Below, one piece after another: positions 8,556-59,429 of a DNA stretch of 64,000 bases. Source of the stretch: Agrobacterium cucumeris. GTDB taxonomy: Bacteria > Pseudomonadota > Alphaproteobacteria > Rhizobiales > Rhizobiaceae. The notes under the pieces are model-generated. The model was not told where the DNA came from, searched no databases, and was given only the letters and a program-made list of their open reading frames with translations. The DNA lies in NCBI RefSeq assembly GCF_030036535.1, contig NZ_CP080388.1, positions 372,001 to 436,000 on the forward strand, in the 5' to 3' direction. Within the stretch, counting starts at the first letter, position 1. Each line of letters begins with the position of its first letter. Position numbers and translations under genes: made by a program.

Positions 8556-9131
8556 CTAACGCAGATTTCCGAGGCGCTTCAGCGCCTCGGAAAAACCCGC
8601 CGCTTGCAACTGGAACGACACCGTGCGGCCCTGCAGATCGGGGGCTTCAATCGTCAATGTCTTTCCCGCCTCAAGCGCCGAGACGAGCTCGACAAAGGGC
8701 GTGAAGGACACGATGCAGCCGACGGGCAGGCAGGTGCTGACCTGCACTTCCTGCAGCCGCACAGTTCCGGATTTCACCGAAAACAACTTTGTGACGGCAA
8801 GGCCGAAAGGCATGACGATGGTGCCGGACAATTTGTCCGGTATTTTCGGATCATCAATCCGGAATTCGACCGAGACGACAAGCTTGCGGGTTTTCTCCTC
8901 AAGCTGCACCTGGGCTATGGCGCAGGCCGGCTTTTCCGCCGCCACTGAAGCGTTCGGGTTGGCCTCGTCGTTTTCCGCTGGTGCCGCGCAGGCGAGCTGC
9001 CAGCTTCCATAAACCTCGTGCATGGGCGCAGCAATCTTCGCTGCCTCCTGCGCAAGCGCACTCGCTGCAACACTGGCAAAGAGGAAGGCAGCGAGGGTTG
9101 TCTTCCCAACCAAGTTTTGACCACGCCTCAT
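8556..9131 (-). CDS. IalB-family (invasion-associated locus B) secreted protein
   Basis: 191 residues starting at the ATG at 9131, whose A is shared with the TGA of the upstream autotransporter (TGATG), so translation is coupled. The signal peptide ends near SALAQ. The mature part shows IalB-family features: YGSWQLACA after the signal, paired cysteines (CAIAQVQ and CLPVGC), the LSGTIVMPFGLAV segment and the VGCIVSF block. IalB proteins are periplasmic or outer-membrane-associated in alphaproteobacteria. The name comes from Bartonella erythrocyte entry, but homologues are widespread in non-pathogens and their molecular role is not settled. Sharing an operon with an autotransporter suggests a role in its passage or assembly, which is inference. 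Confidence 0.85.
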   Translation of the reverse strand: MRRGQNLVGKTTLAAFLFASVAASALAQEAAKIAAPMHEVYGSWQLACAAPAENDEANPNASVAAEKPACAIAQVQLEEKTRKLVVSVEFRIDDPKIPDKLSGTIVMPFGLAVTKLFSVKSGTVRLQEVQVSTCLPVGCIVSFTPFVELVSALEAGKTLTIEAPDLQGRTVSFQLQAAGFSEALKRLGNLR

Positions 9132-12100
9132 CAAAAACGGACTCCCAGTTCGGCAGAGGCGGATTGATCCAGCATGCCTGCTCCGAAAACAGCGCCATAA
9201 CGGAATGTCAAAGTGGCGGCAGGATTGAGGTCGTAGCGCAGTCCCAGATTGATCAACGCCACATCCTGCGCCATCGCCGCACTTGTAACGGAAAAGCCTT
9301 GGCCACCCGTGTAGAACAAGGTGCTCTCAACCGCCGGATCGCCATAGGCATGACGCCAGCCGATATCGAACATCGCCTGCCCAGCCATGCCCTCAAATGC
9401 GATATCACGGCTGAAACGCGCACCAAGCGTCGAATAAAGCTGGTCATGGCTGGCGGAGCCGGAAGAAACGGCGGCCATGCCGCCCTTCTCGCCGAAGGCA
9501 TCCGACCGTGTGTTCACATAGCTGATATTGGCATAGGGCTCAAACTGGACGAGATCAAAATCGAAACGCCAGGCGGCCTCGGCAAAGACCTGCGTGGTGG
9601 AGGCGTCATAGCCGGCGGTCAGATTTTCCTGCAATGTCGAAAACGACACCGCCCGGCGGGTTTCGACGTCCTGAAAAGCGTGGATCGCTCCGAGGCGCAG
9701 CGAGGCCGGGCCAATTGCTCCGCCCGCATAGGCGGCCGCATAATAGCTGTCCACATCCGCCGACGCCAAAAAAGACTTCTGGCTGATGACATCACGGCCA
9801 TAACCGGCAGCAACACCGGCGCGCCAACCGTTGCCCCAATCACCATCGAGACCAAAAAAGACGCCGCCACCCTTCATACTGACCGACGAGCCGTTGCCAT
9901 CGCCATCGATATGTCCGCGCGACCCGAAACCATTGGACCAGAAAGTGAGGGAGCCTTCATCGATATTCATCGGATCCGATGCACCCGCCCTTCCGACAGC
10001 GGGCAGGATCGGACGCGCATCGATACCCTTGAAGGCGCTGCGCAGCCGGTTGAGAATAACGTCGCGGGTCAACTGACTGCGGTTTATCAATGCCATGGCA
10101 ATTGAAGGATGCAGTTCACCGGCAAGCTGTGAGAAGGCGGATTGGGTTTCGCCGTCCTGCAGAAACAACGCCGCCTGATAAAGCGAGGAAGCCTCCCCAA
10201 GCGCCTCGACGGCCTTGGCGGCGCTGCGCGCGTTATCCGACGATGTTGCAGCAGCAAAAAGCCCGTTCTCCGATGATGCCCGATTGAAGGAGAGATAGGC
10301 GTTGCCGTTATCTGCGCTCTTTGTGACACTCGCAATTACGTAAGCGAAATTATCATCCACACCGGAGAATGTGCCAACAATACCGCCCGTCGCCGTCAGG
10401 ATTCGATATTGGGTGTCGAGACTGTAGGCCGCATAGTTTGAAAGCGGTGTAACGACGAGACGGACATTGTTATCGATGGTGATGGCGCCATTGACATCAA
10501 GCCTGTCGGAACTGCCTGATGCGTCGATTTCGACCGCATAGGCCGAGCCGCTGGCGAATGTCACATCGCCCGTGGAGGTGAGCGTGCCGATGGAATTGCC
10601 GGGCGAAAGCGTGCCGCCCGAGGCGACGGTCAGGCCGCCGATGGTGCCGGACCCGCCGAGCACCGCACCGCCGCCGACCGAAACCACGCTTGTGAGTGAT
10701 CCATTGACGCTGAGCTTGCCCGACGAGACCTCGGTGGGGCCTGAATAGGTGCTGTTTCCGGAAAGGACCAGATTGCCCTCACCGGTCTTTTCGAAAGCAC
10801 CGGTGCCGCTGACGACGTTCGAAAACGTGCCGGCACCATCTACGGCGAGTTTCGCATTATTGACGATGTTCCCCGAGCCGAAGCTTTTTGCGGTTCCCGT
10901 CAGCGTGCCGGCCGAAACAGTGGTGCCGCCGGAATAGCTGTTGTCGCCGGCGAGAAGGAGATTGCCGGTACCCGTCTTTTCAAACGAGCCGGAACCGCTG
11001 ATGACATTGGAAAGCCTACCGGCCCCATCCACGATAAGCTGCGCATTATTGGCGATCTCGCCCGAACCGAAACTGCTGGCGGCTCCCTTCAGCGTGCCGC
11101 CCGAAATCATCGTTCCACCGGAATAGCTGTTGTTGCCGCTGAGCGTCGTGACGCCGTTTTCGGCATTGATCCGGCCAGCGCCGGAAATATCCGCGGAAAG
11201 TTCGTAGTCGCTTTCCGAGTGGTTGAGGACGATGCTGCCGTTGCCGGAACCGAAGGCAATCGCATTCGCCTCAACCTCCCCGGCAGAACGCGCCGTCTGC
11301 CCGGCGGCAGCGCCGATATTCAAAACGCCGGTGGACCCCGCCGCCGATGCGATCACGATGGTCGTCGCGGCAAGGGAACCACCGCCCGTCACCTCCACCA
11401 TGCCGCTGCCGCTTTTCCCGATAACGAGGGTGTTGCCGATTTCCGCGCGTGACCCCGCCCCGGCGACCTGCAATGCCCCGTCCGAACCGGCCTCCGCGCC
11501 GAGAAAAAGCTGATTGGCATTCAGGGAAGCGCCATTGAATACCGTTACGGAGCCGCTGCCGGAGCGGCCGATATTCATGGAGCCGGAACCGGCAAGGTTG
11601 TTATCGACCGCAACCGTGACATTCGAGCCGGTGCCTTCGATGGTCATTGTGCCGGACGAACCGGCAAGTTCGCCCAGGGTTATCTGCCCTGCCTCAATGC
11701 CGCCGCCGGTACTGACCACCACCTCTCCCTCGGCATCATTCTGATATCCGACGAAAAGGGTCTTCGCCACCGTCCAGCTCGATCCGCCGCCGTCGACGAT
11801 CACGGAAGATCTCGAACCGCTAAGCGTTGCGACATAACCGGTATCGCTGTCGACGGAGCCGCCCGTATCGATCTGCAGCGAGCCCTCGCCGGCATTGCCG
11901 ACATGGAGATTTCCGGAATTGCGCAGGGCGCTCCCCGAACCGGAGATACTGGCGGAGCCGACGCCGCCGGCATTTACCCCGAGAACCGTATCGACCGCTT
12001 CGACAAGCCCGCCGCCGGTTATTGTCAGCCGGCCTGTGCCGTTGACGCCAACGCCGAGACTGCCGCTGCCGACCGTCCATACGGAACCGCTGCCATCCAC

Positions 12101-13270
12101 GCCAACATTACCCGTCGCACCCGCGGCATTGCCGAGACGCGCGGATGTACTGTCCACCGCGCCTCCCGACTTCACATTCAGCGTGCCATAACCAGCCGTT
12201 CCCACCGGGTCTGACGCATCGCCGCCAATCTGCAAATCACCCGTCGTCCATTGCGTGCCGCCGCCGGTTACATCCACCACGGCAATCGAATGGCGGCCGA
12301 TGGTGACGGCGCCGCTGGTGACGGTCGCGGCTGTACCGACAGCCATAGTGGCCGCGCCCTCATTGCCGACAACCAATGTGCCCTGGGTTTCCAATACGGA
12401 ACCAGCGCCATCTATCCTGAGCCCACTTCCATCCGATGACCCCAGATTGCCAACGACCGTTTTGCCTTGGCTGATCACCACGCCCCCGCCAGCGATGGAG
12501 AAAGAGGCTAGCCCGCCACCGCCGATGATCATATCGCCGGAGCCTGTCACTGTGCTGCCGGCACCCTCCACGGATACGGTCCCCATGGAGCCAACTCCGT
12601 TGGCGACAACCAGTCCGCCGGTGGTAAACTCGCTTGCGCCCAGCACCTCCAGCAAACCGAAGCCGCCATAACCCACGAAAACGGTGCCGGAATTGTCAAA
12701 GCTGGACGAATTGTCCAGTTTGACGGTGCCATATCCCAACCCGTCCTTACCGACGTAGATATTTCCCGCAGACGTGGCCGAACTTCCACTGAGTGAAAGC
12801 TCACCGACGCCGCTTCCGCCCACGGTTATATCGTCGGTATTCGACCAGGTTCCCCCCGAAAAGTTCAATTTTCCGGTAACGCCGGCGTTGTAGCCAATGT
12901 CGCTCCCGACTGTCGTCAGGCCGCCATTGACTGAAAGCGAGCCATCGGTGTCGATCCCGATCAACAGATCTGAGATATCGGCATGCTTCCCCACTGCAAT
13001 CGTCGGCCCCGCGGAATTGAAGCCGGCAGTATCGTTTGGTCCAGGAACTCGCGTATAGCCGTACCAGTTGGAGGGCAAGAACCAGTCGTCCGTCGATGAT
13101 CCAACCCAGACGATCGTCTCCGCCAGCGCGGGTGACGCGAGTGCGGCGGAAAACATCAGGGCAAAAAGGCTCGTCGAGCCACGCAGAGAGCGCCAGGATA
13201 CGGGCGCTGGCTTCAAGGGCGCCTTCTGCGGATCTTTCTCTTCAGAAACACCACAGAACCAACCGGACAT
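9131..13270 (-). CDS. Large autotransporter with repeat passenger and C-terminal beta-barrel (type Va)
   Basis: 1379 residues. GAGGGAG precedes the ATG at 13270. The long signal region (about 50 residues) ends at SPALA before ETIVWVGSS. The passenger is Gly/Ser/Val-rich, with many 'GG...V.G.GS.(W/L)' repeats typical of a right-handed beta-helix. It contains tandem passenger-associated repeats of the 'NSYSGGT..S.GTL.G.A.SFGSG.I.NNA.L.VDGAG' type, and ends with a linker and an autotransporter barrel of about 280 residues closing in ...ELGVRF with the expected terminal Phe. It should export itself across the outer membrane and display an adhesin-like passenger. Cysteines are confined to the extreme N-terminus. 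No protease active site was recognised. Its gene is coupled to the IalB gene. Confidence 0.92.
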   Translation of the reverse strand: MSGWFCGVSEEKDPQKAPLKPAPVSWRSLRGSTSLFALMFSAALASPALAETIVWVGSSTDDWFLPSNWYGYTRVPGPNDTAGFNSAGPTIAVGKHADISDLLIGIDTDGSLSVNGGLTTVGSDIGYNAGVTGKLNFSGGTWSNTDDITVGGSGVGELSLSGSSATSAGNIYVGKDGLGYGTVKLDNSSSFDNSGTVFVGYGGFGLLEVLGASEFTTGGLVVANGVGSMGTVSVEGAGSTVTGSGDMIIGGGGLASFSIAGGGVVISQGKTVVGNLGSSDGSGLRIDGAGSVLETQGTLVVGNEGAATMAVGTAATVTSGAVTIGRHSIAVVDVTGGGTQWTTGDLQIGGDASDPVGTAGYGTLNVKSGGAVDSTSARLGNAAGATGNVGVDGSGSVWTVGSGSLGVGVNGTGRLTITGGGLVEAVDTVLGVNAGGVGSASISGSGSALRNSGNLHVGNAGEGSLQIDTGGSVDSDTGYVATLSGSRSSVIVDGGGSSWTVAKTLFVGYQNDAEGEVVVSTGGGIEAGQITLGELAGSSGTMTIEGTGSNVTVAVDNNLAGSGSMNIGRSGSGSVTVFNGASLNANQLFLGAEAGSDGALQVAGAGSRAEIGNTLVIGKSGSGMVEVTGGGSLAATTIVIASAAGSTGVLNIGAAAGQTARSAGEVEANAIAFGSGNGSIVLNHSESDYELSADISGAGRINAENGVTTLSGNNSYSGGTMISGGTLKGAASSFGSGEIANNAQLIVDGAGRLSNVISGSGSFEKTGTGNLLLAGDNSYSGGTTVSAGTLTGTAKSFGSGNIVNNAKLAVDGAGTFSNVVSGTGAFEKTGEGNLVLSGNSTYSGPTEVSSGKLSVNGSLTSVVSVGGGAVLGGSGTIGGLTVASGGTLSPGNSIGTLTSTGDVTFASGSAYAVEIDASGSSDRLDVNGAITIDNNVRLVVTPLSNYAAYSLDTQYRILTATGGIVGTFSGVDDNFAYVIASVTKSADNGNAYLSFNRASSENGLFAAATSSDNARSAAKAVEALGEASSLYQAALFLQDGETQSAFSQLAGELHPSIAMALINRSQLTRDVILNRLRSAFKGIDARPILPAVGRAGASDPMNIDEGSLTFWSNGFGSRGHIDGDGNGSSVSMKGGGVFFGLDGDWGNGWRAGVAAGYGRDVISQKSFLASADVDSYYAAAYAGGAIGPASLRLGAIHAFQDVETRRAVSFSTLQENLTAGYDASTTQVFAEAAWRFDFDLVQFEPYANISYVNTRSDAFGEKGGMAAVSSGSASHDQLYSTLGARFSRDIAFEGMAGQAMFDIGWRHAYGDPAVESTLFYTGGQGFSVTSAAMAQDVALINLGLRYDLNPAATLTFRYGAVFGAGMLDQSASAELGVRF
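10749..11132. repeat. 192-bp tandem repeat inside the autotransporter passenger
   Basis: Two adjacent 192-bp units (10749-10940 and 10941-11132), each encoding 64 residues of passenger-associated repeat. They diverge at third positions and several codons, so the duplication is old rather than recent. A third, weaker relative lies on the C-terminal side (the NSTYSGPTEVSSGKL segment). Confidence 0.75.
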
Positions 13271-14038: not shown

Positions 14039-14931
14039 CACGGCACCTCGTTTCCGATTGCGAGTGTATAAAGCTCAAACCATGTCTGGCGGTCGATCGT
14101 GACGCGCAGGGCGTCGGCCGCCGTTTTGATGCGCTCGATATTGTTGGTGCCAAGCACCGGCACGATCTTGGCCGGATGGCGCAAAAGCCAGGCGATGGCG
14201 ACAGCGGTGGCATCCACGCCCTGCTCTTTGCCGATGCGCTGCAGCGCCGCCATCGTTCCCCCATGGGCGCCGGAAAATAGCGAGCCGCCGCCAAGCGGTG
14301 ACCAGGCCATCGGCGAAACGCGCTTTTCCTGCAGGAAGGCGAGATCGCCATTGGTGAAACTATCCGTGGCAAGCAGGCTCATTTCGATCTGGTTCGTCAC
14401 CAGCCGGTTTTTCATGGCCGATTGCAGCAGCGAGAAATCCCATGGCCGGAAGTTGGAGACACCAACGGCCTTCACCTTGCCCGACGCGACCAGTGCGTCG
14501 AGCGCCTTGCCGGTTTCCTCCGCATCAACAAGCGGATCAGGGCGATGAATGAGCAGGAGATCGACATAATCGGTTCCCATGTCGCGCAGCGACGCCTCGA
14601 CCGAGGCATTGATATGGCCTGCCGTCGTATCATAGTGCTTGACGCGGGCGGCGGAATGCCGGCCGGCCGGTGCGACGATGCCGCATTTGGTGACGATCTC
14701 TATTTTGTCGCGCAGTCCCGGAGCAGCCTTGAGGCCGTTACCCAGAATGGCTTCCGCCGTGTATCCGCCGTAAATATCGGCCTGATCCATGGTGGTGATG
14801 CCCTGCGCCAGGCAGGCTTCGATCTTGGCCTGCACATGGGCGGGCGAAGTGTCCTTATCGTCGCCGATGCGCCACATGCCATAAACGATGCGGCTGAGTT
14901 CGAGTTTGTCGGAAAGAGCGATGCGTTCCAT
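14038..14931 (-). CDS. smoB: SmoB, aldo/keto reductase (6-oxo-glucose reductase)
   Basis: 297 residues, an aldo/keto reductase. The N-terminal DQADIYGGYTAE holds the catalytic Asp and Tyr, VTKCGIV the Lys, and LLIHRPDP the His. The C-terminal cofactor segment IVPVLGTNNIERI binds NADPH. In sulfoquinovose catabolism it reduces 6-dehydro-D-glucose, the product of SmoC desulfonation, to glucose, which then enters central metabolism. The start ATG 14931 shares one base with the smoC stop (TGATG), and its own stop overlaps smoA, so the three proteins are translated together. The active-site tetrad appears intact. Naming rests on family plus gene context. Confidence 0.9.
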   Translation of the reverse strand: MERIALSDKLELSRIVYGMWRIGDDKDTSPAHVQAKIEACLAQGITTMDQADIYGGYTAEAILGNGLKAAPGLRDKIEIVTKCGIVAPAGRHSAARVKHYDTTAGHINASVEASLRDMGTDYVDLLLIHRPDPLVDAEETGKALDALVASGKVKAVGVSNFRPWDFSLLQSAMKNRLVTNQIEMSLLATDSFTNGDLAFLQEKRVSPMAWSPLGGGSLFSGAHGGTMAALQRIGKEQGVDATAVAIAWLLRHPAKIVPVLGTNNIERIKTAADALRVTIDRQTWFELYTLAIGNEVP

Positions 14932-16088
14932 CAGTGGCGTTCCCCGTTGCCGAGCGGCGTGGCAGGCGTTTCAGAAGGTACCCGGCCGTAAGCATGCGGC
15001 AGGGAGCAGGTTTTCATCTGCGGCAGAACCTTGGTGCCGAAGTGTTCCGCCTCATCAATATGCGGATAGCCGGAAAGAATGAAGGCGCGAATGCCCATCT
15101 TCTGGTATTCCTCCAGCGTCGACAGAACCTGATCCGTCGAACCGACGAGAGCCGCACCGCAGCCGGAGCGCGCCCGACCGATGCCGGTCCACAGATTGGG
15201 TTCGACATAACCGAACTTGTCAGCCAGTTCGCGGGCACGCGCCTGATGCGACACGCCGAGCGAGCCGCTGTCATGGGCGCGGTTACGGATCAGCTGGCCA
15301 TATTCGTCATCAAGCTTCGAGACCAGATGTTCGGCGTATTCGCGCGCTTCCTGTTCGGTATCGCGCACCACCATGTGGACGCGCAGGCCGTAATCCAGCG
15401 TGCGGCCATGGGCGGCTGCACGTTCATTGGCGGCGCGCATGCGGTCCGCCAGCTGGTCCTTCGTCTCAGGCCACATCAGATAGACGTCACACTGCGCGCC
15501 ACAGAGTTCCAGCGCATCCGGCGAATAACCGCCGAAATAAAGCAGCGGTCCGCCATTCTGCTGGTAAGGCCGTGCCGGCTCGGTGGAGACACCCTTGAAC
15601 TGGTAGATTTCACCGTCATGGTCGATGGTGTCGCGCGTCCAGGCCTGACGCAGGATCTCAACGACCTCGTGGCTGCGCTTGTAACGAAACGCACTATCGG
15701 CCACTTCTCCGGGAAAATCGGAGCTGATGACGTTGAGCGTCAGGCGGCCCTTCAGCATGTGGTCGAGCGTCGCCACCGTGCGCGCCAGCATGATCGGCTG
15801 CATCTCGCCGCAGCGGATCGCCGCAAGGAAATTGATGCGGTCACTGATCGGCGCACAGCCTGCAACGAAGCTCAGCGTATCCTGCCCGACCTGATAGGAT
15901 GAGGGGCAGAGGATGTTGCGGAAACCGAGTTCCTCGGCCTTTTTGACGATATCGGAGCAATGGTCGAAGCTGGAGCGCAGGCTGCCGTCTGGCACGCCCA
16001 GATAGGCGTAATCATCGGAGCACAAAGCGGAAAACCAGGAGACCTCGGCAGCATCGAGATCAGCGGATGTAACGGGTACGACGGTCAT
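14931..16088 (-). CDS. smoC: SmoC, sulfoquinovose monooxygenase (LLM class flavin-dependent)
   Basis: 385 residues, a luciferase-like monooxygenase of the SsuD alkanesulfonate monooxygenase type. GAGGAGG precedes ATG 16088. Landmarks: LCPSSYQVGQDTLSFVAGCAP, INFLAAIRCGEMQPIMLARTVATLDHM, LTLNVISSDFPGE, and YFGGYSPDALEL. It uses FMNH2 from SmoA and O2 to cleave the C-S bond of sulfoquinovose, releasing sulfite and 6-oxo-glucose. First gene of smoCBA, transcribed divergently from smoD across a 100-bp promoter region that contains the TTGAT-type repeat at 16144-16163. SsuD is the closest alternative reading, but the full SQ gene set around it favours SmoC. Confidence 0.92.
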   Translation of the reverse strand: MTVVPVTSADLDAAEVSWFSALCSDDYAYLGVPDGSLRSSFDHCSDIVKKAEELGFRNILCPSSYQVGQDTLSFVAGCAPISDRINFLAAIRCGEMQPIMLARTVATLDHMLKGRLTLNVISSDFPGEVADSAFRYKRSHEVVEILRQAWTRDTIDHDGEIYQFKGVSTEPARPYQQNGGPLLYFGGYSPDALELCGAQCDVYLMWPETKDQLADRMRAANERAAAHGRTLDYGLRVHMVVRDTEQEAREYAEHLVSKLDDEYGQLIRNRAHDSGSLGVSHQARARELADKFGYVEPNLWTGIGRARSGCGAALVGSTDQVLSTLEEYQKMGIRAFILSGYPHIDEAEHFGTKVLPQMKTCSLPHAYGRVPSETPATPLGNGERH

Positions 16089-16143
16089 GCAATTCCTCCT
16101 CAGGGCCGCTCTTGTTTTTCTTGCATAACATCAAGAAATATGT

Positions 16144-16163
16144 AAATCAATGATGTATCAATT
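16144..16163. promoter_or_regulatory. Candidate SmoD operator in the smoC-smoD divergent promoter
   Basis: AAATCAATGATGTATCAATT contains two ATCAA direct repeats 11 bp apart, one helical turn. A nearly identical sequence (18 of 20 positions, opposite orientation) lies upstream of smoE at 17036-17055. Its position between the regulator and the monooxygenase operon fits an operator for SmoD. The link to SmoD is inferred from position and repetition only. Confidence 0.6.
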
Positions 16164-16188
16164 TTTGTTTCGGGGAGGAAACGACATC

Positions 16189-16893
16189 ATGAAAAACACT
16201 GGCGGCAGCCTGCCCATGTATCTGCAGATCGCCGAAATGCTGGTGCGCGAGGTGGCGGCGGGCCGGCTGATCGACGGCGAAAAGCTGGCGCCGGAGCGTG
16301 ATATGGCGGCCGATCTCGGCATTGCCGTCGGCACGCTTCGCAAGTCACTCGCCGAATTGCAGGAGCGCGGCCTGCTGGAGCGCGTGCAGGGTTCGGGCAA
16401 TTACATCCGCGCCGTCAGCGATCCGCAAAGCGTTTACGCCTTCTTCCGCCTCGAGATGATCGAGGGCGGCGGCCTGCCGACGGCAGAGGTTCTGGATGTG
16501 GCGCGGCTTGCCAAACCCGCCGCCCTGCCCGCTTTCGGCACTTCCGCCGAAGGGCATCGCATTCGCCGCCTCCGGCGCATTGCCGGAAAACCGGCGGCCA
16601 TCGAGGAAATCTGGCTTGATGGTTCTTATGTCGACACGATCGCCATCGAGAACATGTCGGAATCCCTCTATCTTTATTATCGCACCCGTCTCAATCTCTG
16701 GATCTCGAAGGCGGAAGACCGCATCGATCTGGGCGACGTACCCGACTGGGCACCCGAGGCCTTCGGCCAGAAGCCGGGCGCGCCGGTGCCGCGCGTGCTG
16801 CGTCTCAGCCAGGCGCAGGATGGCGCGGTGGCCGAAGTTTCATGGACATGGTTCGACCATACGGTTGCCCGCTACGTTTCTCGCATACGTTGA
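16189..16893 (+). CDS. smoD: SmoD, GntR/HutC-family regulator of the SQ genes
   Basis: 234 residues from ATG 16189, preceded by GGGGAGGAA; an in-frame ATG at 16150 falls inside the candidate operator and is unlikely. The N-terminal winged helix-turn-helix (about residues 1-75) has the GntR pattern PMYLQIAEMLVREVAAG, LAPERDMAADLGIAVGTLRKSL and QGSGNYI. The C-terminal UTRA effector domain (about residues 90-230) ends VSWTWFDHTVARYV. Regulators of this subfamily bind a pathway sugar and release DNA. Standing between divergent smoCBA and smoEFGHI, it probably represses both, with sulfoquinovose or its glycoside as inducer. Likely autoregulated through the 16144-16163 element. Confidence 0.88.
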   Translation: MKNTGGSLPMYLQIAEMLVREVAAGRLIDGEKLAPERDMAADLGIAVGTLRKSLAELQERGLLERVQGSGNYIRAVSDPQSVYAFFRLEMIEGGGLPTAEVLDVARLAKPAALPAFGTSAEGHRIRRLRRIAGKPAAIEEIWLDGSYVDTIAIENMSESLYLYYRTRLNLWISKAEDRIDLGDVPDWAPEAFGQKPGAPVPRVLRLSQAQDGAVAEVSWTWFDHTVARYVSRIR

Positions 16894-16994
16894 GATCGCC
16901 GCATATTCGCGTGATCTACATGGAGGCAAGAATTTGACGGGAGGCAAGGAAGCGACGACCTGCCTTGCGGCGAGTTTCGCCACTATATTTCTTT

Positions 16995-17055
16995 AAATCA
17001 ACGACTTAATAGTTTTTGATTTCTGTCAGAAATAAAATTGATACACTATTGATTT
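16995..17055. promoter_or_regulatory. Cluster of TTGAT/ATCAA elements upstream of smoE, candidate operator
   Basis: Within the 335-bp AT-rich gap between smoD and smoE: AAATCAA (16995-17001) and TTGATTT (17016-17022) form an inverted pair. AATTGATACACTATTGATTT (17036-17055) is the reverse complement, with 2 mismatches, of the element at 16144-16163. The remaining leader (17056-17228) ends in GAGGAGG before smoE and shows no gene or convincing hairpin. Confidence 0.58.
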
Positions 17056-17228
17056 CCTTTTTGTGAAAGGTAATATCACGGAATTAGGGAGACAGGCGTT
17101 TCGCCATCCCACGCTATCGCCGGATAATCGGAACAGATTTTCGACAGAGCGATACGTGGAACTTGAAGGTTGATACCGGCTTTTGCGTCCATCGGGATTT
17201 TGGACGCGTCGGTTGTGAGGAGGAAAAT

Positions 17229-18305
17229 ATGGCTTCAGTCAGCCTGCGCAAGCTGGATAAGAGTTACGGTGCCCTGCGCATCGTCAAGGGCATCGACCTT
17301 GAAATCAACGACGGTGAATTCGTGGTGTTCGTCGGCCCTTCCGGCTGCGGCAAATCCACGACGCTGCGTATGGTCGCGGGTCTGGAAAGCATCAGCGGCG
17401 GGGAGGTCATGATCGGTGACCGTGTCGTCAACAGGCTGCCGCCGCGCGAACGCGACATCGCCATGGTGTTTCAGGATTATGCGCTTTATCCGCACAAGAC
17501 CGTGCGCGAAAACATGGGTTTCAGCCTGAAGGTGCGCGGCGTGAGCGCTTCGCAGGCCAATGCCAGCATCGATGAGGCGGCAAAGATGCTCGGCATCGAG
17601 CATCTGCTCGACCGCCGGCCCGGCCAGCTTTCCGGCGGCCAGCGCCAGCGTGTGGCCATGGGCCGCGCCATTGTGCGCCGCCCGCAGGTCTTCCTGTTCG
17701 ACGAGCCGCTTTCCAACCTCGACGCCAAACTCCGCGGACAGGTGCGCACGGAAATCAAGCGCCTGCACCAGCAGCTTGGCACGACAATCATCTATGTCAC
17801 TCATGACCAGGTGGAGGCCATGACGCTGGCCGACCGCATCGTCATCCTGCGTGGCGGCGATATCGAGCAGGTCGGCACCCCGGACGAGGTCTATAACCGT
17901 CCGGAAAGCGTCTTTGTCGGCGGCTTCGTCGGTGCTCCCGCCATGAATTTCGCCCGCGCCAGGGTAAGTGGCGACCGGCTGACATTTTCCGACGGCAATT
18001 TCCTGCCGATGGCGGCCATCCGGCCAGCCCGCGAAACGGGCCTCGAAGGGCGCGACGTCATTGTCGGCATTCGCCCGGAACATTTCGGCCCCGCCGAGGG
18101 CTTCGACAGCCAGCTTGCAGTCAAGGTGCAGGTGGTGGAACCGCTGGGTTCCGATACGCTCGTCCATTTCAGCCTCGGCGATGCGGCGCTGACCGCCAGA
18201 ATGCCGCCGCAGCTTCGCCCGGCGCCGAACGAGGAGCTTAAGATCGGGCTCGATCCGTCCAAGGTCCATCTTTTCGACGCCGCGACGGAACGCTCCATTC
18301 ACTGA
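17229..18305 (+). CDS. smoE: SmoE, ATP-binding subunit of the sulfoquinovosyl glycerol importer
   Basis: 358 residues from ATG 17229 (GAGGAGG just upstream; an in-frame ATG at 17163 lacks a ribosome site). It is a MalK/UgpC-type CUT1 ATPase: Walker A GPSGCGKST (residues 36-44), Q-loop FQDYALYPHKTV, signature LSGGQRQRV, Walker B FLFDEPLSNLD, H-loop VTHDQ, then a C-terminal MOP/TOBE-like regulatory domain (about residues 240-358) with IVGIRPEHFGP. It energises the SmoF-SmoGH sugar importer at the inner membrane. First gene of smoEFGHI. Confidence 0.9.
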   Translation: MASVSLRKLDKSYGALRIVKGIDLEINDGEFVVFVGPSGCGKSTTLRMVAGLESISGGEVMIGDRVVNRLPPRERDIAMVFQDYALYPHKTVRENMGFSLKVRGVSASQANASIDEAAKMLGIEHLLDRRPGQLSGGQRQRVAMGRAIVRRPQVFLFDEPLSNLDAKLRGQVRTEIKRLHQQLGTTIIYVTHDQVEAMTLADRIVILRGGDIEQVGTPDEVYNRPESVFVGGFVGAPAMNFARARVSGDRLTFSDGNFLPMAAIRPARETGLEGRDVIVGIRPEHFGPAEGFDSQLAVKVQVVEPLGSDTLVHFSLGDAALTARMPPQLRPAPNEELKIGLDPSKVHLFDAATERSIH

Positions 18306-23565: not shown

Positions 23566-23677
23566 GCGACAGTTTCCGACGCATTCCGAGGGGAGCACCG
23601 AACGGTGCTGAGATGGCGATGAGCCGGACCCTTGAACCTGATCCGGGTCATGCCGGCGTAGGAACGGAAACTGTCGC
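23566..23677 (+). ncRNA. TPP riboswitch (THI element) controlling the thiamin operon
   Basis: All THI-box landmarks are present: GGGGAGC near 23589, GCTGAGAT at 23607-23614, ACCCTTGAACCTGATCCGGG around 23628-23646 and TGCCGGCGTAGG at 23651-23662. The closing P1 stem is unusually long and perfect: GCGACAGTTTCCG (23566-23578) with CGGAAACTGTCGC (23665-23677). It lies 24 bp after smoI and about 130 bp before the permease gene, so thiamin pyrophosphate should shut off the downstream operon. I see no clear terminator hairpin with a T-run, so control may act on translation. Confidence 0.95.
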
Positions 23678-23809
23678 ACCCTTCAGGCGCTGCCCTTTCT
23701 CTTCTCCGCTTGGCCATGATCTCCGTGATTGTCACATCTGGAGACTGAATGATGATGCTGAAACCTTCTGTCCTTCGCACATGGTGCGTTTGCGTCTGAG
23801 GTCCGGCTC

Positions 23810-59078: not shown

Positions 59079-59429
59079 ATGAATGAAATGCCTTATTCCA
59101 AGAGTGGCAAAGCGGCCAGACGCAATCATTTTGCGCTCGTTGCCGCAGCCCTTTCAGCACTCACTTTCGCAACGGCCTCGTGCGCCGTGGTCGAAGACGC
59201 TGTTTTCATCAAGACCGCATCAGCGGATACGACAACAATGAAGACGCGGGTTACTCCTACCAGGGCTTCCTACGGCTACGACAAGACAGGCAATGCAGCT
59301 GTAACGCTTGTTGCCGACGCGTCGTCCGAGGCACCGTCGATAGCGCGACATTCCTATTCCGGTTCTTCTCCCTATATTTGCTCGCCGAGCGGATTTGGCC
59401 AGAAGTCCCGCTGCTTCCTGAGACCGTAA
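59079..59429 (+). CDS. Small exported protein, unknown function
   Basis: 116 residues; AGGGGA lies before ATG 59079. After a basic start (KSGKAARRNHF) comes a hydrophobic stretch LVAAALSALTFATASCA that could be a signal peptide or a lipoprotein signal (the Cys follows TAS rather than a canonical lipobox). The rest is Ser/Thr/Ala-rich and ends in SPYICSPSGFGQKSRCFLRP, two cysteines eleven residues apart that could form a disulfide. I do not recognise the family. It ends 59 bp before the convergent LuxR-type gene and is divergent from the glycan operon. Confidence 0.6.
   Translation: MNEMPYSKSGKAARRNHFALVAAALSALTFATASCAVVEDAVFIKTASADTTTMKTRVTPTRASYGYDKTGNAAVTLVADASSEAPSIARHSYSGSSPYICSPSGFGQKSRCFLRP

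Follow-up and report, generated by a model that had tools for sequence, protein, structure and literature searches.

A conserved head-to-tail repeat at the smo promoters of Agrobacterium, the probable operator of the GntR/HutC-type regulator SmoD

Transcription factors of the GntR/HutC type are repressors for the most part. According to Suvorova and co-workers (PMC4494728), the canonical HutC consensus is the palindrome NyGTMTAKACNy, and FarR (TGTATTAWTT) and NagQ (TGGTATT) are exceptions with direct repeats. A preliminary description of the locus considered here had called direct repeats unusual for such a regulator; with FarR and NagQ in view they are indeed unusual, but not unknown. Sulfoquinovose is a sulfur sugar of plants. 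CsqR (YihW), the regulator of the E. coli sulfoquinovose genes, is a DeoR-family protein, and the CsqR pathway is sulfo-EMP, unlike that of SmoD. CsqR is a local regulator of sulfoquinovose catabolism (PMC10991401), the role that we propose for SmoD. No description of a SmoD operator was found among the matches listed in the literature searched, which is no proof of absence, and a term search of the main text of PMC12890257, PMC9594981 and PMC13372026 returned no mention of SmoD.

The window, the whole stretch of 64,000 nucleotides that was analysed, holds an Agrobacterium smo (sulfoquinovose monooxygenase) locus. Its minus strand encodes a flavin reductase, an aldo-keto reductase and a luciferase-like monooxygenase (smoA, smoB and smoC), and its plus strand smoD (GntR helix-turn-helix (HTH) and UTRA domains), smoE (ABC ATPase), smoF (binding protein) and a GH31 glycosidase. 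The names smoA-I follow the published sulfoquinovose monooxygenase pathway. In window coordinates, the features are as follows:

14931 to 16088, minus strand: smoC, luciferase-like monooxygenase, divergent from smoD
16189 to 16893, plus strand: smoD, regulator with GntR HTH and UTRA domains (domain matches; start by alignment of relatives)
17229 to 18305, plus strand: smoE, ABC transporter ATPase (gene and domain calls)
16143 to 16163, minus strand: candidate operator 1, AATTGATACATCATTGATTTA, a conserved 11-bp direct repeat in the smoC-smoD gap
16157 to 16161, minus strand: distal half-site of operator 1, TTGAT (of ATTGATACA; repeat match, conservation)
16145 to 16150, minus strand: proximal half-site of operator 1 and predicted smoC -35 (TTGATT; conservation, promoter table)
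16122 to 16127, minus strand: predicted smoC -10 (TATGCA), 17 nt from the -35 (conservation)
16121 to 16126, plus strand: predicted smoD -35 (TTGCAT within the conserved CTTGC; deduced)
16143 to 16148, plus strand: predicted smoD -10 (TAAATC), 16 nt from the -35, a weak consensus match that overlaps operator 1 (deduced)
17036 to 17056, plus strand: candidate operator 2, AATTGATACACTATTGATTTC, ahead of smoE
17049 to 17054, plus strand: proximal half-site of operator 2 and predicted smoE -35 (TTGATT; promoter table)
17071 to 17076, plus strand: predicted smoE -10 (TAATAT), 16 nt from the -35 (promoter table)

The smoD start most likely lies at 16189 rather than at 16150, because close relatives align from 16189 and a GGAGG precedes it; the alternative frame from 16150 would place part of the operator within the coding sequence. 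SmoD combines an N-terminal GntR winged HTH (PF00392, residues 11-73, 44.2 bits, cut-off 27) with a C-terminal UTRA ligand domain (PF07702, 79.9 bits, cut-off 23.8), and its nearest PDB relatives are YvoA and DasR. A domain search at E up to 0.001 returned GntR and UTRA only; SmoD was rejected as a MocR regulator on the absence, at that threshold, of an aminotransferase-like domain. Directly downstream of smoD (16922-16957) lie two imperfect tandem copies of 18 nt (78%) of GGAGGCAAG..., followed by a terminator-like stem at 16969-16981, a type of stem of which the scan expects 1.8 by chance. Elsewhere in the window, a very long repeat-rich protein, autotransporter-like by eye, is encoded near smoA (9131-13270, minus strand), and a TPP riboswitch (Rfam RF00059, 74.8 bits) at 23579-23681 on the plus strand precedes genes that resemble, by eye, a thiamine-precursor ABC transporter and a thiM-like kinase.

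A repeated element in the smoC-smoD gap and ahead of smoE had been pointed out in the preliminary description, and its particulars were reproduced: positions 16144-16163 (AAATCAATGATGTATCAATT) and the reverse complement of 17036-17055 (AAATCAATAGTGTATCAATT) are identical at 18 of 20 bases, the pattern TTGAT-N6-TTGAT is exact at 16146-16161 (minus strand) and 17038-17053 (plus strand), and the two copies lie in the two places named. The window holds no third exact copy of this pattern; with up to one mismatch the only further match is at 59208, and 3.4 are expected by chance, so the half-site pair alone is unremarkable in a single window; what supports the element independently is its conservation, described below. 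The 20-mer AAATCAATNNTGTATCAATT with up to three mismatches matched the window only at the two smo places, against an expectation of 0.01 that is descriptive, the pattern having been derived from the sites themselves. In the whole 5.7-Mb genome, AATTGATACANNATTGATYTA with up to three mismatches matched the two smo sites (0 and 1 mismatches) and one place with three; up to two mismatches, the smo sites were the sole matches, and a reversed control pattern matched once.

The preliminary description had also suggested aligning the corresponding gaps from other Rhizobiaceae, and in that comparison the element is kept. A SmoD search gave 178 relatives, from which 80 loci of Rhizobiaceae, Rhodobacteraceae and relatives were retained, and 75 of these carry an exact ATCAA-N6-ATCAA at most 170 bp upstream of smoD. 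When the spacer between half-sites was varied from 0 to 15, N6 was found in 75 loci, N11 in 12 and every other length in none; the same scan of the reversed gaps gave zero matches. Grouping the 75 sites at 80% identity over 76 bp leaves 47 clusters, with the consensus AATTGATACA-NN-ATTGATYTA, an 11-bp direct repeat that reads AATTGATACANNATTGATYTACA in the smoC sense. Both TTGAT are invariant by construction, as the clusters were chosen by the exact repeat, a choice that loses only 5 of the 80 loci; outside the picking pattern, AA at -1/0, A11 and TA18-19 are likewise invariant across all 47 clusters. Variation is seen at the two middle bases and in the upstream flank, and the far flank is near background.

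Among the five loci with no site upstream of smoD, four (L042, L052, L060 and L064) have one ahead of smoC in the same genome instead. In L042, L052 and L064 this site is on the contig of smoD, which comes late in a smoC-smoB-transporter-smoE-smoD operon and has no site of its own. The fifth, L076, offers a weak candidate only (14.7 bits). A separate observation concerns L133 (1485-1519) and L160, where a single smoC-smoD gap holds two adjacent TTGAT-N6-TTGAT pairs at a distance of 19 bp; the half-sites may form an extended array there.

The site stands in a near-constant relation to the predicted promoters. In all 47 divergent clusters the TA of a predicted -10 lies 17 nt from the proximal half-site, as TGnTA in 46. 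In 20 other contexts, chosen by hand, without near-identical loci and without the degenerate sites on the smoE side of L149 and L151, the distance is 16 or 17 nt in 18 and, by eye, 18 nt in L026 and L203. Beside the smoC -10, GCAAG (CTTGC on the other strand) is present with at least four of five letters in 42 of the 47 clusters, in which smoD faces away, and in none of the 20 contexts that lack a smoD facing away; a 21st row, L243, does face smoD, and its GCAAG is one base closer. A counter-example from outside the clusters is L203 (2041-2100), whose smoC-smoD site has a perfect operator and TGnTA and no GCAAG. We predict that CTTGC is the smoD -35 and that operator 1 sits on the smoC -35 and the predicted smoD -10 at once, an arrangement by which the smoC-smoD copy can serve both divergent promoters. 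An automatic promoter scan found one site, with 0.7 expected, and did not return the proposed smo promoters.

We consider it highly likely that AATTGATACA-NN-ATTGATYTA is the operator of SmoD, acting as a GntR/HutC-type repressor that a sulfosugar releases. The candidacy that the preliminary description had put forward for both smo promoters has strong support, because the site is conserved, co-occurs with smoD, is nearly limited to smo genes and moves with them; its position, repeat symmetry, conservation and pathway-limited distribution are read directly from the genomes. In the proposed mechanism, SmoD would read two ATTGATACA-like half-sites arranged head to tail at a distance of one helical turn (11 bp), of which the gene-proximal one would double as the -35 box of the target promoter. 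Bound SmoD would then keep sigma factor and RNA polymerase off the promoters of smoC(BA) and smoE(FGHI), and at the smoC-smoD operator it would also hold down smoD itself through the predicted smoD -10 region, until a sulfoquinovose-type ligand in the UTRA domain releases it. From these patterns we infer SmoD binding, repression over activation, the ligand and the stoichiometry.

It is unlikely that SmoD binds the site and activates. PhoB-type activator boxes are same-orientation direct repeats one turn apart over the -35, and the fixed orientation of the smo site, its near-fixed distance to the predicted -10 in the contexts tabulated and the poor smoC -10 (TAYGCA) would suit a protein of that kind. 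However, no activator seems to be needed, because the -35 hexamer is close to consensus and several smoE -10 boxes are good (TAATAT, TATGAT), and the general habit of GntR/HutC proteins also favours repression.

The distribution of the site across genomes bears on whether SmoD or another protein reads it. In an even sample of 247 family genomes, with the site allowed at most one mismatch and SmoD called at E up to 1e-50, the site was found in 30, SmoD in 35 and both in 27 (Fisher P 1e-25, kinship not corrected). The three site-only genomes (G502, G534 and G630; loci L115, L119 and L128) have one-mismatch matches with no smo gene within about 1.5 kb, against two matches of a reversed control pattern in the same 247 genomes. 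The G502 match (L205, 2101-2123) scores 25.9 bits, inside the range of accepted sites, and lies away from smo genes, shortly upstream of a reading frame that resembles dihydrodipicolinate synthase by eye. At a lowered threshold, each of the eight SmoD-only genomes showed a degenerate or diverged site in its smoC-smoD gap: two degenerate sites (G491 and G532, 26.5 and 28.2 bits) and six of the AATTCATT type (G442, G483, G493, G557, G564 and G617, 11.4 to 24.6 bits), with that of G617 scoring under 11 and read by eye from its gap. The resulting 35 of 35 SmoD genomes with a site is a count made after inspecting the misses.

In a 385-genome class sample, exact AATTGATANNNNATTGAT was found at 23 places in 22 genomes. 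Six places, in five genomes, belong to smo loci. Each of the remaining 17 scores under 20 bits, and apart from a 37% ATPase hit in L100 none has a smo gene in its vicinity; these 17 look like background, since a reversed control gave 19 matches. A whole-genome site search covered 49 of the 80 locus genomes and returned 70 places with up to three mismatches. Of these, 51 have at most two and fall in 48 of the 49 genomes; seven were unforeseen by the locus scans and, when fetched, all seven lay ahead of smo genes, the remaining 44 not having been matched one by one to locus-scan coordinates. The 19 places with three mismatches, of which only the two of G635 were inspected, compare with 18 reversed-control matches.

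The site moves with the pathway genes, namely with a detached smoA, a second smoC and other transporter operons. In three genomes of one genus (L121-L123) it precedes a smoA whose contig is not the one that carries smoD, and separate contigs in draft assemblies do not establish distance; in a fourth genome of that genus (L124), it is ahead of a second smoC located 650 kb from smoD on one contig. The smoC-smoD gaps of all four genomes likewise carry TTGAT-N6-TTGAT. A second site in L203, L240 and L241 precedes a sugar-type transporter operon with no more than a distant likeness to smoEFGH (30-52%), and in L240 both sites share the derived letters TACCC. The site precedes the whole operon in L236-L238, with smoD as a late gene, and in G679 the smoC contig and the smoA/smoD contig have one site each. 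Beside several of these relocated-site loci is a Gfo/Idh-like gene, whose context, together with PMC10755693, suggests a putative GH188 (SqgA-type) sulfoquinovosidase.

A somewhat less probable reading than activation is that the site serves a different transcription factor, whether one of the pathway or one of the cell. smoC is accompanied by smoD in 35 of 36 smoC genomes, too tight a co-occurrence to separate the two by distribution; the single exception, G607, has smoC and smoB, with smoD not detected and no site in the stretches fetched. Close matches are nevertheless nearly limited to smo genes, and four genomes have the site ahead of smo genes away from smoD, which is elsewhere in the genome. 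In addition, HTH and half-site differ together in one clade. In this distant SmoD clade, half-site 1 is TTCAT in six of six and half-site 2 is ATTGATACA in five of six, with ATTGATATA in G442; the arginine of the PER motif in the SmoD HTH is replaced (PTE) in all six and PER is kept in 41 other SmoD, a comparison of 47 hand-chosen loci in which PTE marks one clade and so one event.

The symmetry of the site supports the direct-repeat reading of the preliminary description. Over positions -2 to 21, self-likeness is strongest at a direct shift of 11 (score 8.5, next shift 4.0), and the best inverted centre is position 8 (5.1, or 4.8 in the permutation run). With 20000 column permutations, the direct repeat is significant (P 0.004) and inverted symmetry is not (P 0.42). 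A palindromic reading was rejected, as 42% of the permutations equalled its inverted score, and with it the canonical HutC palindrome with GT-N4-AC. The direct-repeat statistic is weakened because the sites were picked by exact repeat and perhaps because the proximal half-site owes part of its conservation to its -35 role; true repeats are supported by the distant clade, because its half-site 2 (ATTGATACA) has the half-site 1 letters of other loci.

Another idea, which we regard as very improbable, is that only a core promoter (-35 and -10) is conserved and the second TTGAT arose by chance. It would accommodate the proximal TTGATY, which lies at -35 spacing from the predicted -10 in the contexts tabulated, but hardly an exact TTGAT pair in 75 of 80 loci, with TTGAT instead of the usual TTGAC. 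The distal AATTGATACA, moreover, shows conservation outside TTGAT as well (AA in all 47 clusters; the letters of ACA in 46, 44 and 44).

Two further half-sites, near 16995 and 17016, had been noted close to operator 2; both exist, but they are poorly kept beyond the closest loci, and as operator components they were rejected. Of the 8 closest loci tested, all keep the TTGAT near 17016 and 7 keep the ATCAA near 16995; among 9 other loci the corresponding counts are 0 and 2. Both half-sites are thus probably not part of the conserved operator. The 16995 half-site falls inside an IHF-consensus-like match, AATCAACGACTTA (16996-17008, plus strand), about 40 bp upstream of operator 2, which occurs in exact form in 4 of 15 loci and in relaxed form in 8 of 15 and was retained as no more than a lead. 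That the operator itself is an IHF site is extremely unlikely, because although its ATCAA cores resemble the IHF consensus WATCAA-N4-TTR, the TTR part is missing from the operator consensus, and near restriction to smo genes would not be expected of a global bending protein.

Returning to SmoD as the protein that reads the site, we suggest, tentatively and with rather less than even confidence, that it may represent a direct-repeat branch of HutC regulators in Alphaproteobacteria. Its recognition helix, which has a TLR core but lacks the usual SRxTVR arginine, would read 9-bp head-to-tail half-sites one turn apart. Sigma factor would recognise the same hexamer as the -35, and the operator could then not drift without the promoter. 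If so, either one dimer with one DNA-binding domain turned or two dimers side by side would bind, and for UTRA-type regulators either arrangement would be structurally new. The SmoD paralogues of the same genome were considered as a probe of a wider direct-repeat class and dropped, the best being 30% identical. The operator would provide a precise and testable regulatory code for the sulfoquinovose monooxygenase pathway, which belongs to a very large natural flux of sulfur, and could be used to locate detached smoA genes, second smoC genes and alternative transporters in genomes. A deeply conserved direct-repeat site of a HutC protein may also help to explain how proteins that mostly read palindromes bind tandem repeats.

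Among known regulators, FarR of Corynebacterium glutamicum belongs to another pathway and phylum than SmoD. Its direct repeats (TGTATTAWTT) agree, counted by eye, with the SmoD half-site TGTATCAATT at 9 of 10 positions (PMC4494728). NagQ, of the HutC type, and NanR, of the FadR subfamily, also have direct-repeat operators like the SmoD site, with half-sites (TGGTATT and TGGTATAW) unlike that of SmoD (PMC4494728). YvoA/NagR and DasR share the GntR HTH and UTRA domains with SmoD but read a canonical palindrome, not a direct repeat, whereas the MocR-type regulators GabR, TauR and PdxR combine a GntR HTH with direct-repeat operators (PMC4494728) and have an aminotransferase-like sensory domain in place of the UTRA of SmoD. 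Direct-repeat HutC operators are already known, and the SmoD site is a new, deeply conserved member.
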